From positions 310,001-374,000 of the forward strand of contig CACKGF010000001.1 in NCBI GenBank assembly GCA_902599625.1: a stretch of 64,000 bases of DNA, written 5' to 3'. This document shows, one piece after another, positions 2,114-29,473 of this stretch. The stretch comes from an uncultured Pelagibacteraceae bacterium. GTDB taxonomy: Bacteria > Pseudomonadota > Alphaproteobacteria > Pelagibacterales > Pelagibacteraceae. The notes under the pieces were generated by a model. The model made no database searches and had not been told where the DNA came from. It worked only from the letters and a program-made list of their open reading frames with translations. The position numbers and the translations under genes were made by a program. Numbering within the stretch: position 1 is the first letter of the stretch; each line of letters opens with the position of its first letter.

Positions 2114-3341
2114 GTTTTTATTTTTAATTTTTTTATTTTTAAATATATTTTTAAATATATCTGTTTCTGATGAAAAATTTGATCAAGATTATAAAAAAAT
2201 CTATGATGTTTATGATGATTGCATATGGTCAGATACCCAAGTAGAACACTATTTAACTATTGAATATGATTTATATGATAAATTAGGCATAGATGAGTCA
2301 CCACTGTTCTTAAAATGTAATAAAATTTTAAATGAAGTTGTTAACAAAGATCCTAGGTTTAAAGATTTAATTGATAAAGCGATATCTGAAGGTAAAAGTA
2401 AATCACAAAATATTGGTATTAAAATATACTTAGAGTTTCACGATAATATTTTATGGCATTCTAAAGATGAATTAGAGATAAAAAAAACTTTAGTAGAACT
2501 TGAAAATAATTATCTAAAAAGATCCAATATTTTGACTAATATAGATGCAGTTCGGGTATATGGACTTCTAGGTTGGTTTTATAATGTAAATGAAAATTTT
2601 TTTGATATGCAAAAGGCCCATGATTTCATGTCCATTGCCGCAGATAATGAAAAAGAAAAATACTATTTGAAATATTACATAAATAATTTAGGCGTTATTT
2701 ATGATCAAGATAGATACGGCAATTTTTCACCTAAAAAAAATAATAAAATAGCATTTAAATTGTACAAAGAGGCAGCAGAGTTAGGTCTACATTATGCTTA
2801 TGGAAATTTAGGAAAATTTTATGTTCTAGGTTTGGGAGGGATTAAAAAAGATTATGATAGTGCAATTAAGTTTTATAAACTTAAAAGAATTGCGCCATAT
2901 GGAAATGACAATTTTTCAGAATTAGCTGTCTTATTTGATAAAAAAAGACTTCCAATTGATTTGCAAGAGTATTTGGGTTGGCTTGAGGATTATTTGATAC
3001 AAAGTAAAGACACTAGGGTTTTTCAACAGTTAGCTTGGTTAAGTGATGAAGATGAGTTTCTTAAAAATAGAGAAGAAATCCTAATAAATTCATATAAATG
3101 GCAATACTTATGTAGTATTTATTGTCAAATTGTTGAAGATAAAAAAAGAGCTAGTGCAGAACTCTCTATAATGAAAAAATTAAATTTGACAACTGATCAA
3201 ATTATTCAAGCTGAAAGAAAGGCTTTAAATTGGTACAAAGATAAATGGAATGAAGCCTCAAATTCAATAATAGAAAATAATACATCGCTTGAAAAAAAAG
3301 AGCTTATTGACTTGATAAGAGACGCCTTAATGAAAAATTAA
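2106..3341 (+). CDS. Secreted Sel1/TPR-repeat protein
   Basis: This 411-aa protein starts with a typical signal peptide: MYK, then a hydrophobic run, then a likely cleavage site near residue 20-22. The middle contains Sel1-like helical repeats; AFKLYKEAAELGLHYAYGNL near residue 220 followed by a KDYDSAIKFYKL helix is the clearest. Such repeats are protein-protein interaction scaffolds, often in periplasmic or envelope stress complexes. The four coupled genes from the PrsW-like protease to this one look like a single envelope system. Specific function is unknown. Repeats before and after the clear pair are degenerate. Confidence 0.75.
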   Translation: MYKFLFLIFLFLNIFLNISVSDEKFDQDYKKIYDVYDDCIWSDTQVEHYLTIEYDLYDKLGIDESPLFLKCNKILNEVVNKDPRFKDLIDKAISEGKSKSQNIGIKIYLEFHDNILWHSKDELEIKKTLVELENNYLKRSNILTNIDAVRVYGLLGWFYNVNENFFDMQKAHDFMSIAADNEKEKYYLKYYINNLGVIYDQDRYGNFSPKKNNKIAFKLYKEAAELGLHYAYGNLGKFYVLGLGGIKKDYDSAIKFYKLKRIAPYGNDNFSELAVLFDKKRLPIDLQEYLGWLEDYLIQSKDTRVFQQLAWLSDEDEFLKNREEILINSYKWQYLCSIYCQIVEDKKRASAELSIMKKLNLTTDQIIQAERKALNWYKDKWNEASNSIIENNTSLEKKELIDLIRDALMKN

Positions 3342-3401: not shown

Positions 3402-3776
3402 ATGACATTTGGTGACTCAGTATCTACATGTTTGAAAAAGTATTTTGTTTTTGAAGGTAGGGCAAGTAGATCTGAATATTGGTGGTTTCAATTAATCGTT
3501 TCACCTTCATACTTTATTTCAACAATTCTAGAAAATGAAATCGCTTATTTTTTTTTAGGGATAACATTATTTACTCTTATACCTGCAATTTCTGCTGGCG
3601 TAAGAAGACTGCATGACACAAATAGATCGGGATTTTTTTTATTGATAAGCTTTATTCCGTTTATTGGTGGATTAGTGCTTTTATTCTTTTTAATACCAGA
3701 AGGTACAAAAGGTAAAAATAGATTTGGTCCAGATCCATTGAAAAGAGTTACTAAAAAAAGAAATAAAAAAAGTTAA
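3402..3776 (+). CDS. DUF805 membrane protein
   Basis: The 124-aa sequence matches the DUF805 (YhaH/YhaI-type) pattern: an N-terminal CLKKYFVFEGRASRSEYWWF block, hydrophobic helices, a GVRRLHDTNRSGFF loop, another helix pair, then a polar tail containing GKNRFGPDPL. These are small inner-membrane proteins of unknown biochemical role. It is separated by 60 bases from the Sel1 gene upstream and meets the next gene tail to tail with two bases between stops. Length is normal for the family. Confidence 0.88.
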   Translation: MTFGDSVSTCLKKYFVFEGRASRSEYWWFQLIVSPSYFISTILENEIAYFFLGITLFTLIPAISAGVRRLHDTNRSGFFLLISFIPFIGGLVLLFFLIPEGTKGKNRFGPDPLKRVTKKRNKKS

Positions 3777-26265: not shown

Positions 26266-26928
26266 CTACTTAGATGGATCTGGAACTTTTCTTAAATAAG
26301 GTTTAATTGCATTCCAACCTTTAGGAAACAATTTTTTAGCTTCATCGTCCTTAACAGCAGGAACAATGATAACTTCCTCACCTTTTTTCCAATCTGCAGG
26401 TGTTGCTACTTTATGTTTTGCAGTCAACTGCATTGAGTCTATTGATCTCAATAATTCCATAAAGTTTCTTCCAGTCGCCATTGGGTAAGTTAAGAACAAA
26501 CCAATTCTTTTATCAGGTCTTATAATGAAAACTGTTCTAACTGTTTGGTTGTCTACAGCGGTTCTACCCATTGAAGTAGTTCCTGCATCACCTTCTAACA
26601 TGTTATAAAGTTTTGCAATTTTAAGATCCTCGTCAGCTATAATTGGATAGTCTGGTTTTTTTCCAGTTACGTCTTTTATATCCTCTAACCACTTTACGTG
26701 ATCTGAAACTGGATCAACACTTAGACCTATTACCTTTACATTTCTTTTTTCAAATTCAGGTTTTAATTTTGCAAGAGAACCCAGTTCTGTTGTGCAAACA
26801 GGTGTAAAGTCTTTTGGGTGTGAAAATAAGACACCCCAACTATCACCTAGCCATTCATGAAATGAAATATCACCAATTGTTGTTTTAGCTTTAAAGTCAG
26901 GCGCTAAACTATTTATTTTTAGAGTCAT
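26266..26928 (-). CDS. 1-Cys peroxiredoxin (Prx6 type)
   Basis: The 220-aa protein contains the catalytic HPKDFTPVCTTELG loop (peroxidatic Cys near residue 45). It also has SVDPVSDHVKWLEDI, DEDLKIAKLYNML, TVRTVFIIRPDKRI and the long C-terminal domain of the Prx6 subfamily. No resolving cysteine is seen, consistent with a 1-Cys enzyme. It reduces peroxides with an external thiol. A good ribosome site AAAGGAGATGTAA precedes the start. It is divergent from the persulfide-dioxygenase-like gene. Confidence 0.93.
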   Translation of the reverse strand: MTLKINSLAPDFKAKTTIGDISFHEWLGDSWGVLFSHPKDFTPVCTTELGSLAKLKPEFEKRNVKVIGLSVDPVSDHVKWLEDIKDVTGKKPDYPIIADEDLKIAKLYNMLEGDAGTTSMGRTAVDNQTVRTVFIIRPDKRIGLFLTYPMATGRNFMELLRSIDSMQLTAKHKVATPADWKKGEEVIIVPAVKDDEAKKLFPKGWNAIKPYLRKVPDPSK

Positions 26929-27003: not shown

Positions 27004-27696
27004 ATGATTTTTGAACAACTATTCGATGCTAAGTCTTCAACCTATACGTACATATTGTCAAGCGGTGAAGGTCGCGAAGCTTTAATAATCGATCCGGTAA
27101 TAGAGCACACTGAAGAATATATAAAACTTTTAGAAAAACTAAAATTAAAATTAGTAAAAGTAATTGATACGCATATTCATGCAGATCATATTACTGGGCT
27201 TAATGAGTTAAGTAAAAGAACAAGTTGCACAAAAATAATGGGTGAAAATTCTAAATCTGAAGTGGTTGATTTAAGAGTTAAAGAAAATGAAAAAATTAAA
27301 TTAGATGGTATTGAATTAAAAGTTTTGTACACACCTGGACACACAGATTGTTCATATAGTTTTTTAATGAAAGATAGAGTTTTCACTGGAGATACTTTAT
27401 TAATTAATGGGACTGGAAGAACTGATTTTCAAAATGGAAATGCTAAACAACAATACGATTCTTTATTTAATAAATTGCTTAAACTTCCAGAAAGCACAAT
27501 AGTTTTTCCAGCACATGATTATAACGGGAAAAAAAACTCTACAATTGGAAATGAAATAAAAAATAATCCAAGATTACAAGTAAATTCAATAGATCAATAT
27601 GTAGAGATCATGAATAATTTAAAATTAGCTAATCCAAAAATGATGGATGTGGCTGTGCCGGCAAACGTAAAAGGCCTTACTTTAAATCAAATTTAA
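27004..27696 (+). CDS. MBL-fold persulfide dioxygenase (ETHE1/SDO-like)
   Basis: I start at the ATG giving MIFEQLFDAKSSTYTY, which aligns with ETHE1-type N-termini; upstream in-frame starts add only a poor leader. The 230-aa protein has THIHADHITG, a TPGHTDCSYSF loop, FTGDTLLINGTGRTDFQNG and FPAHDYNGKKNSTIGNE. That set is typical of iron persulfide dioxygenases rather than glyoxalase II. It would oxidise glutathione persulfide to sulfite. Nearby CysE, CysK and a Cys-rich peptide suggest a thiol/sulfide management locus. Confidence 0.85.
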   Translation: MIFEQLFDAKSSTYTYILSSGEGREALIIDPVIEHTEEYIKLLEKLKLKLVKVIDTHIHADHITGLNELSKRTSCTKIMGENSKSEVVDLRVKENEKIKLDGIELKVLYTPGHTDCSYSFLMKDRVFTGDTLLINGTGRTDFQNGNAKQQYDSLFNKLLKLPESTIVFPAHDYNGKKNSTIGNEIKNNPRLQVNSIDQYVEIMNNLKLANPKMMDVAVPANVKGLTLNQI

Positions 27697-27746
27697 AGCG
27701 ACAAAAATTGGGTTGATTATTAGGTTATTAGCTCTATATATAATTT

Positions 27747-27863
27747 ATGGCTTGCGACAATTCAAAATGTATTTGCACAAACTGCACTAACGACACATGT
27801 GCTTGTGATGGGGATATGCAATGTAATTGCAAACCTGAAGGTGTTTGTTGTTGTTGCAATTAG
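27747..27863 (+). CDS. 38-aa cysteine-rich, metallothionein-like peptide
   Basis: The short frame ATGGCTTGC...TAG encodes 38 residues with 12 cysteines (positions 3, 8, 10, 13, 18, 20, 26, 28 and 34-37). They include CxC pairs (CIC, CAC, CNC) and a terminal CCCC. There are no aromatic residues, histidine, arginine or leucine, which is classic metallothionein composition. It probably binds Cu(I), Zn or Cd as a thiolate cluster. It sits 50 bases after the persulfide-dioxygenase gene and 25 bases before cysE, so cysteine supply and metal binding may be co-expressed. No strong ribosome site is visible, and I cannot assign it to a named metallothionein family. Confidence 0.7.
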   Translation: MACDNSKCICTNCTNDTCACDGDMQCNCKPEGVCCCCN

Positions 27864-27888: not shown

Positions 27889-28470
27889 ATGAATGAATTT
27901 TTAGAGTCTATAATTAAGAGAGATCCGGCTGCCAAATCAAAGTTAAGTATCATTTTAACTTATCCTGGTGCTAAGGCTGTTTTTTTTCACAAGATTGCAA
28001 ATTTTTTTGCAATTGCAAAGTTTCATTTAGTTGCAAGAATTATATCTCAATTTTCAAGATTTTTAACTGGAATAGAAATTCATCCAAAAGCAAACATTGG
28101 TAAAAATTTATTTATAGATCACGGCATGGGAGTTGTGATTGGTGAAACTTCAGAAATTGGAGACAATGTAACGATCTATCACATGGCAACACTAGGTGGT
28201 ATCTCACCAAGCGTAAATTCTAATGAACAAAGAAATATCAAAAGACATCCGACGCTTAAAGATAATGTTGTAGTTGGATCTGGTGCACAAATACTCGGGC
28301 CAGTAACTGTTGGCAAAAACGCAAAAATTGGTGCAAACGCAGTTGTAACAAAAGATGTTCCAGAAAATGCAGTGATGGTTGGAATACCAGCAAAAAATGT
28401 TGGAGAAACTTCTGGTTCAGATGAGAATTTTAAACCTTATGGTATAACTTCTGAAAGTGATAAAAACTAA
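27889..28470 (+). CDS. cysE: Serine O-acetyltransferase
   Basis: The 193-aa protein has a short helical N-terminus and then a left-handed beta-helix of hexapeptide repeats, with the substrate-site [16 protein letters not shown] and YHMATLGG and a C-terminal VGIPAKNVG. This is the short EpsC-type CysE. It acetylates serine to O-acetylserine for cysteine synthesis. The C-terminal tail is where CysE can dock into CysK. The cysteine synthase gene starts one base after the stop. Confidence 0.93.
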
Positions 28471-28471
28471 T

Positions 28472-29473
28472 ATGAAAAATGCTCAAAATAATTTTATTGA
28501 AGGGATTGGAAATACACCATTAGTAAAATTAAGAGCTGCATCAGAAATAACTGGATGCAATATATATGGTAAAGCAGAATACTTAAATCCAGGTGGATCA
28601 GTAAAAGATAGAGCCGCTTTAGCATTGATTAAAGATGCTCAAGAAAAAAAATTAATTTCAAAAGGTGGAACGATTGTTGAAGGTACAGCTGGTAATACTG
28701 GTATCGGTCTTTGTTTAATAGGAAATTCTATTGGTTATAAGACAATTATTGTGATGAATGATAATCAAACTCAGGAAAAAAAAGATATGTTAAAGAACAT
28801 GGGAGCTGATTTAAGGTTGGTCCCACCTAAACCATACAAAGACGATGGCAATTATGTAAAGGTTGCTGGTAGACTCGCCGATGAATTAAAGAGTAGCAAC
28901 AATCACGGGGTAGTTTGGGCTAATCAATTTGATAACACCGCTAATTCCAAAGGACATTATGAGACGACAGGGCCAGAAATTTGGATGCAAACTGATGGAA
29001 AAGTCGATGGTTTTGTTTGTTCATCAGGTACTGGTGGAACTATTGCTGGTGTAAGTAGTTTTTTGAAAGAAAAAAACAAAAATATCAAAATTTATTTGTC
29101 TGATCCTGCTGGATCATCCCTTTATAACTACATTGAAAACGGAGAATTAAAAGGTGAAGGTAATTCTATAACTGAAGGTATAGGATCAAGTAGAATAACG
29201 GCTAATTTTGCGGAGGCAAAAATCGATGGGGCATTTTCAATAGAAGATAAGGAGTCTTTGCCAGTGTTATATGACCTTATTCAAAACGAAGGTTTAAGTT
29301 TAGGAACAAGTTGTGGTGTCAATATTGCTGGAGCTATTAGGCTTGGTAAGAAATTAGGACCAGGTAAGACAATTGTAACCATTCTTTGTGACAGATCAGA
29401 TAAATACAACTCCAAGCTGTTTAATAAGAAGTTTTTACAGGAAAAAGGTCTTCCAATTCCCGCTTGGATTTAA
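28472..29473 (+). CDS. cysK: Cysteine synthase (O-acetylserine sulfhydrylase family)
   Basis: I start at the ATG one base after the cysE stop (333 aa); a GTG five codons earlier is possible. PLP-family motifs are clear: NPGGSVKDR with the Schiff-base Lys near residue 46, GTAGNTGIGL, SSGTGGTIAG for the phosphate, and LGTSCGVN. It makes cysteine from O-acetylserine and sulfide. Operon order with cysE is canonical. Its C-terminal region is somewhat different from E. coli CysK and closer to the CysK2/cystathionine-synthase-like group, so substrate range may be broader. Confidence 0.9.
   Translation: MKNAQNNFIEGIGNTPLVKLRAASEITGCNIYGKAEYLNPGGSVKDRAALALIKDAQEKKLISKGGTIVEGTAGNTGIGLCLIGNSIGYKTIIVMNDNQTQEKKDMLKNMGADLRLVPPKPYKDDGNYVKVAGRLADELKSSNNHGVVWANQFDNTANSKGHYETTGPEIWMQTDGKVDGFVCSSGTGGTIAGVSSFLKEKNKNIKIYLSDPAGSSLYNYIENGELKGEGNSITEGIGSSRITANFAEAKIDGAFSIEDKESLPVLYDLIQNEGLSLGTSCGVNIAGAIRLGKKLGPGKTIVTILCDRSDKYNSKLFNKKFLQEKGLPIPAWI

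Follow-up and report, generated by a model that had tools for sequence, protein, structure and literature searches.

A candidate metallothionein-like peptide encoded ahead of cysE and cysK in SAR11 bacteria

Introduction

The SmtA, BmtA and PmtA metallothioneins (PF02069, Metallothio_Pro) are small, cysteine-rich proteins with CxC and CxxC pairs and a presumed cytosolic thiolate cluster. The SAR11 peptide described here is alike in these respects, but it has no sequence match to them and carries a C-terminal CCC(C); it is presumably also the shorter of the two. Fungal and animal metallothioneins, as we understand them, share with the peptide a high cysteine content, a near absence of aromatic residues, and CxC and CC runs. 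The peptide has no detectable homology to these proteins, and the likeness would be convergent.

A second group of described systems is regulatory. Poly-Cys attenuators have been tested in mycobacteria (Canestrari 2020, as cited in PMC9094748), and the features in common with the SAR11 gene are a short open reading frame, in SAR11 probably leaderless as well, a Cys run and a location upstream of other genes, which here are cysteine genes. Unlike these attenuators, the SAR11 peptide is conserved throughout, and in many lineages a covarying hairpin overlaps its Cys run. The portion of PMC1262725 consulted describes ORFs with a Cys run as candidate leaders in Mycobacterium, Propionibacterium acnes and Bifidobacterium longum, those of Mycobacterium being without a conserved terminator-like hairpin, and also ilvB leader ORFs of Actinobacteria, in which the regulatory codons overlap candidate terminator hairpins. 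The ilvB leaders and, in many lineages, the SAR11 gene both overlap a codon run with a hairpin, although the amino acid differs.

SAR11 bacteria are among the most abundant bacteria of the surface ocean. In the sections consulted of a 2014 metagenome study (PMC4161860), Pelagibacter had few of the detoxification genes examined. A metallothionein-like gene, too short for the usual annotation length limits and present in about one in eight of the genomes sampled from the order, would add to this picture. An earlier note on this DNA, made from the sequence alone, considered such proteins little described in SAR11, and our literature search, whose coverage left out most subscription papers and preprints, agrees: it returned no title on a metallothionein in SAR11 or Pelagibacter, none on a cysteine leader or attenuation with cysK-cysE, and none on SAR11 cysteine-rich small proteins. 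The excerpts covered of PMC2704228, on Pelagibacter structured RNAs, do not mention cysteine or cysE, and those of PMC2965389 and PMC7790235 hold nothing on the peptide gene.

The peptide gene and its conservation

The window analysed is a stretch of 64,000 nucleotides from an uncultured Pelagibacteraceae bacterium (assembly GCA_902599625.1, contig CACKGF010000001.1, positions 310,001 to 374,000); its features around the peptide gene are listed in Table 1. The earlier note regarded 12 cysteines in 38 codons as non-random, and no random or window frame is comparable. Among the window's 171 ATG frames of 25-80 aa its Cys fraction of 0.316 ranks first by a wide margin, the runner-up having 0.194, and the maximum in 200 first-order Markov windows is 0.231; none of those 200 windows holds an ORF with at least 12 Cys in 45 aa or fewer. 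ORFs of at least 150 aa in the window have a mean cysteine content of 1.0%.

Table 1. Features at the peptide locus (window coordinates)
Feature	Position	Strand	Remark
Peroxiredoxin-like gene, divergent neighbour	26266..26928	-	below all model cut-offs
MBL-fold hydrolase gene, glyoxalase II / sulfur-dioxygenase-like	27004..27696	+	below all model cut-offs
GCGACAAA box 5' of -35	27698..27705	+	conserved in part among lineages whose upstream genes differ
Inferred -35 element TTGATT	27713..27718	+	-34..-29 from ATG
Inferred -10 element TATATA	27735..27740	+	-12..-7 from ATG
Cys-rich, metallothionein-like peptide gene (38 aa, 12 Cys)	27747..27863	+	ATG start, TAG stop; translation, homologues, selection
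Four-Cys codon run (TGT TGT TGT TGC)	27846..27857	+	immediately 5' of the last codon and stop
cysE, serine O-acetyltransferase	27889..28470	+	TIGR01172 213.4 bits, cut-off 210.65
cysK, cysteine synthase A	28472..29473	+	NF007989 517.6 bits, cut-off 387

Across 81 distinct homologous genes, 11 Cys columns are kept in 80-81 and the twelfth Cys varies, a conservation that is partly circular because 62 of the 81 rows were chosen by a Cys-spacing regex, the other 19 coming from 20 profile-located stretches with a looser Cys filter. The spacing is C-x4-C-x-C-x2-C-x4-C-x-C-(x2-5)-C-x-C-x6-CCC. Two copies failed the regex and were omitted from the alignment: in one (L055) a Cys is replaced by Ser, and in the other (L112) the CCC end is rearranged to YCCYCC. 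Several non-Cys columns are also well kept in the 81 genes, with N5 and P30 each in 78, N12 in 74, D16 in 73, K29 in 68 and K7 in 62 (His in 17). The 71 distinct peptides have 36-43 residues, with 11 or 12 Cys (30.1% Cys) and 0-2 F/Y/W/H each. The earlier note had proposed that an unconserved frame or unconserved cysteines would speak against its claim; frame and cysteines alike are conserved in the homologues, which does not refute it.

Synonymous change is seen in peptide genes whose residues are conserved (NG86 counts, from pairs that are non-independent). Codon models on fixed trees favour an omega near 0.2 over all codons, and for the 24 non-Cys codons that lie off the 3' hairpin the log likelihood is -2297.3 at omega 0.2 vs -2381.7 at 1.0 (with kappa fixed at 2; the free fit gives -2295.1). 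The non-Cys codons are under purifying selection. This selection, with omega about 0.2 on non-Cys codons outside the hairpin, is our chief ground for taking the peptide itself to matter, and the frame is almost certainly a real protein gene.

Genomic context

In the window 25 nt separate the end of the peptide frame from cysE. The position before cysteine-synthesis genes to which the earlier note had pointed is a conserved linkage, cysE being the next gene downstream in all 51 named SAR11 loci. The order MBL hydrolase, peptide, cysE is found in 49 of the 51, and cysK follows cysE in 48 of these 49, the remaining contig stopping within cysE. At one locus (L116, 2941-3505) the best tblastn segment covers the cysE start only (2941-3072) and cysK begins at 3507, which may reflect a frameshift or an assembly error.

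The peptide is placed elsewhere in genus g4. In locus L135 it is followed by cysE and msrB, and in two further genomes (L133, 7270-7770, and L134, 7266-7769; genomes G273 and G227) msrB lies directly 3' of the peptide. No cysE was found in the L133 and L134 assemblies, which are 75% and 80% complete. Since the peptide is retained next to msrB in these two genomes, attenuation of cysE is not its sole role. We note that the sister genome with L135 has cysE between the peptide and msrB, so the peptide may have remained in place when cysE was lost or relocated.

Among peptide-negative genomes of high completeness, cysE is present in 24 of 25, and cysK is found at all 24 loci; in G069, a SAR11 genome with a listed completeness of 99%, no match to cysE reached E <= 1e-20. 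The gap between MBL gene and cysE is 24-44 nt in 7/24 peptide-negative loci with adjacent MBL gene, and 191-277 nt in carriers. There is no metal gene among the identified neighbours. A terminator-like site lies inside cysE on the minus strand (27938-27922), one being found vs 0.3 expected by shuffling.

Promoter and upstream box

Of 68 distinct upstream regions of homologues, a set that includes two mis-called starts, 59 have a TATA at -12..-9, vs 1 of 54 control ORFs, and 56 have a TTG at -34. No peptide gene has a motif resembling a Shine-Dalgarno (SD) sequence, vs 9 of the 54 control ORFs. The spacing of TATA and TTG, fixed relative to the start codon, would place the ATG at +1, and the peptide gene is probably read from a leaderless mRNA with its own promoter. 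A strict generic promoter scan of the window did not list this promoter.

The GCGACAAA box was considered as a shared operator and rejected: together with a downstream TTG it occurs once in the genome, at this locus (the backward control pattern occurring 1 and 1 times), and with a single genomic occurrence no regulon can be drawn. In L036 the corresponding box is a near-palindrome, AATTTGCGGCAAATT, a possible operator.

Distribution

Searches by tblastn of 297 genomes of the family gave a match at E <= 1 in 32, and a strong one (E <= 1e-6) in 15, the window's own genome among them; the strong homologues fall under four genus codes (g1, g3, g4 and g14). Of the weak matches (E 0.04-0.21), that of L024 is full-length and in place and was kept, while those of the sixteen genomes with weak matches only were dropped as chance. 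Many of the weak matches run antisense to a longer frame, which we take to be scpB. A profile search of the order found the peptide in 51 of 397 genomes at E <= 1e-5 and did not detect it in 346, a further 3 at 0.03-0.08 being left uncounted; 16 of the 51 carriers are among the 151 genomes that are at least 90% complete. A pattern scan of named species genomes yielded 51 loci. Their titles all read Pelagibacteraceae, Pelagibacterales or Candidatus Pelagibacter, and most carry AG- or AH- isolate names, presumably those of single-cell genomes. There are no single-contig assemblies among the strong-match genomes listed in the family and order searches. In searches of 385 genomes of the class and 299 of the phylum, the genome of the window was the sole match. 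Judged by these searches, the Cys-rich peptide is a SAR11 gene family.

A quickly built cysE tree has 100 rows, 78 with the peptide and 22 without, and the presence of the peptide takes 3 changes on it, against a shuffled mean of 20.1; 54 of the 97 inner branches of this tree are weakly supported, and such change counts are blind to gain vs loss. The pattern fits an old gene with few losses. Horizontal spread was rejected because so few changes are needed, and a phage or plasmid origin because viral contigs and phage and plasmid records gave no match; 146 stretches of viral contigs fit the pattern, and none of them encodes a relative.

A predicted hairpin over the Cys run and stop codon

Folding of the junctions indicates a stem in which codons before and within the Cys run pair with the codons after the run and the stop, ahead of cysE. 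Of 76 rows of the cysE tree, 51 end in CCCxx-stop, and pairing (at least 7 of 8 pairs) is found in 35 of the 76; of the 51 CCCxx-stop rows, 35 have the Cys run paired to the final codons and stop. A minimum free energy of -6 or below is reached in 34 of 58 distinct peptide 3' ends vs 11% of 56 control gene ends, and in a set of 48 distinct 3' ends, 22 exceed 95% of their synonymous recodings in stability.

The two arms also tend to change together. In 29 distinct CCCxx-stop genes, codons 34 and 39 mostly co-change (AGT-AAC 8, ACT-AAG 5, TCT-AAG 5, AGC-AGC 1), with exceptions that include ACT-AAA 3. In-register Watson-Crick pairs number 178 vs at most 170 with permuted 3' arms and at most 131 with recoded codons. 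In the same 29 genes a pair counter gives 85.9% paired cells vs 78.5% in shuffles, and 21 cells changed on both sides vs 8.8; none of 500 shuffles was as high for paired cells, both-side changes or covariation score. Two measures are weaker, namely the pairs with both-sided change (5 vs 3.1, equalled in 13 of 500 shuffles) and the pair types (15 vs 13.5, 58 of 500). Sliding the partner reduces the pairing, although the TGT repeats still allow 71.5% at a slide of -3. Pair 5-21 has at least 3 changes per side on the cysE tree.

The CCCCN clade of the window lacks the hairpin, as do L013, the L024 type and most of the CCCC-stop clade. L015 and the CCCC-stop locus L048 fail the pair rule, yet have a p of 0.010 by recoding. 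The two peptide-msrB loci give no recoding signal (p 0.22 and 0.52), despite which L011 retains 7 of 8 in-register pairs. These comparisons support RNA-level selection in some lineages, the window itself not being one of them, and it is fairly likely that the hairpin is regulatory where it occurs.

A strong terminator is not supported by the loci scanned. The SAR11 stems are A-U rich and only some have a T run (TTTTT lies 3' of the stem in several loci), and a scanner that looks for at least 3 G-C pairs and a T run called no intrinsic terminator at the junction in the three loci tried (L012, L093 and L036). Six loci matched no known RNA family, and RNA structure over the whole gene is unremarkable (mean z-score about -0.8 over 18 loci), the 3' end having been tested separately. 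In the N-ending loci L085, L087, L090 and L103 the hairpin seems to extend beyond the core, followed on the way to cysE by ATTTAAAT-like stretches and no T run.

Function of the peptide

The earlier note called the peptide metallothionein-like. In its composition this description holds: the peptide has a low mass, about 30% Cys in CxC and CC arrangements, and few aromatic residues or His, and it has the selected Cys spacing of metallothioneins in the broad sense, a trait made partly circular by the regex picking. It does not hold for known models or structures. The window peptide and all 16 aligned members match 0 families in Pfam at E up to 10 and 0 in NCBIfam, and in 99 SAR11-family genomes no match to PF02069 reaches the cut-off, 4 weak ones staying below it. 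In the PDB, a profile search gave 20 sequences at E <= 10, none of them a metallothionein (lipoprotein-receptor and mucin matches have E >= 0.1), and the single sequence matched Notch at E >= 0.14.

A metal-thiolate function nevertheless appears probable, and with marginally less confidence we favour the overall reading of a metallothionein-like protein encoded by the first gene of a cysE-cysK operon. The reduced peptide would wrap Zn(II), Cu(I) or Cd(II) ions in a thiolate cluster. The mammalian alpha domain has the stoichiometry M4Cys11, and a 38-residue peptide with the same 11 Cys could bind four divalent ions. Co-transcription with cysE-cysK would supply the cysteine consumed in making the peptide, and in many CCCxx-stop lineages, though not in the window, the hairpin of poly-Cys codons and stop may tune read-through into cysE-cysK.

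A more ambitious version, which we regard as possible but rather doubtful, is that the gene is bifunctional, encoding a metallothionein-like protein whose poly-Cys end and stop form the regulatory hairpin of the cysteine operon. Heavy translation of the peptide, or low cysteine, would stall ribosomes on the Cys run; this would keep the hairpin open and switch on cysE-cysK with no protein regulator, so that the thiol demand of metal buffering would call up cysteine synthesis. In the window's clade the protein would have survived the loss of the hairpin. If true, this would offer a testable case of a metal-binding protein gating cysteine synthesis through its own codons. Of the linked metal and thiol control that the earlier note suggested, the thiol side gains independent support from the hairpin, seen in relatives outside the window's clade; for the metal side, the one candidate operator box proved fruitless.

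Among other readings, the peptide could be a thiol store or a redox or persulfide buffer, with oxidants and sulfane sulfur as its reaction partners in place of metals. The identified neighbours (peroxiredoxin, MBL hydrolase, cysE, cysK and msrB) all concern thiols or oxidative damage, as this would predict, but the fixed Cys spacing (CxC, CxxC, CCC) and the conserved non-Cys residues exceed what a store needs, and we consider it improbable.

Slightly less probable still is a purely cysteine-responsive leader peptide for cysE-cysK with a functionless product, on which a scarcity of charged Cys-tRNA would stall ribosomes and block the hairpin, allowing expression of cysE-cysK. Much of the locus has this appearance: it lies just upstream of cysE-cysK behind a probable leaderless-type promoter, the Cys run stands at the very end (CCC or CCCC, which the regex ensures by construction), a covarying hairpin spans the Cys codons and stop, and candidate leaders of this type are known from Actinobacteria (PMC1262725, in the portion consulted). 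A functionless product would, however, not be expected to keep eight dispersed Cys and several non-Cys residues, with an omega of about 0.2 off the hairpin. Moreover, the window's clade and others lack the hairpin, in two genomes the gene right after the peptide is msrB, and the scan found no terminator in 3/3 loci tried.

It is very improbable that this is a small Fe-S or other cofactor protein, or a ligand of a partner protein, with its Cys serving a specific site: no Fe-S gene is among the identified neighbours, and there are at least 11 Cys with few hydrophobic or aromatic residues. Finally, a chance open reading frame, for which the short length might speak, is ruled out by the conservation of columns and the low omega, together with the homologous loci and the excess of Cys over random windows.
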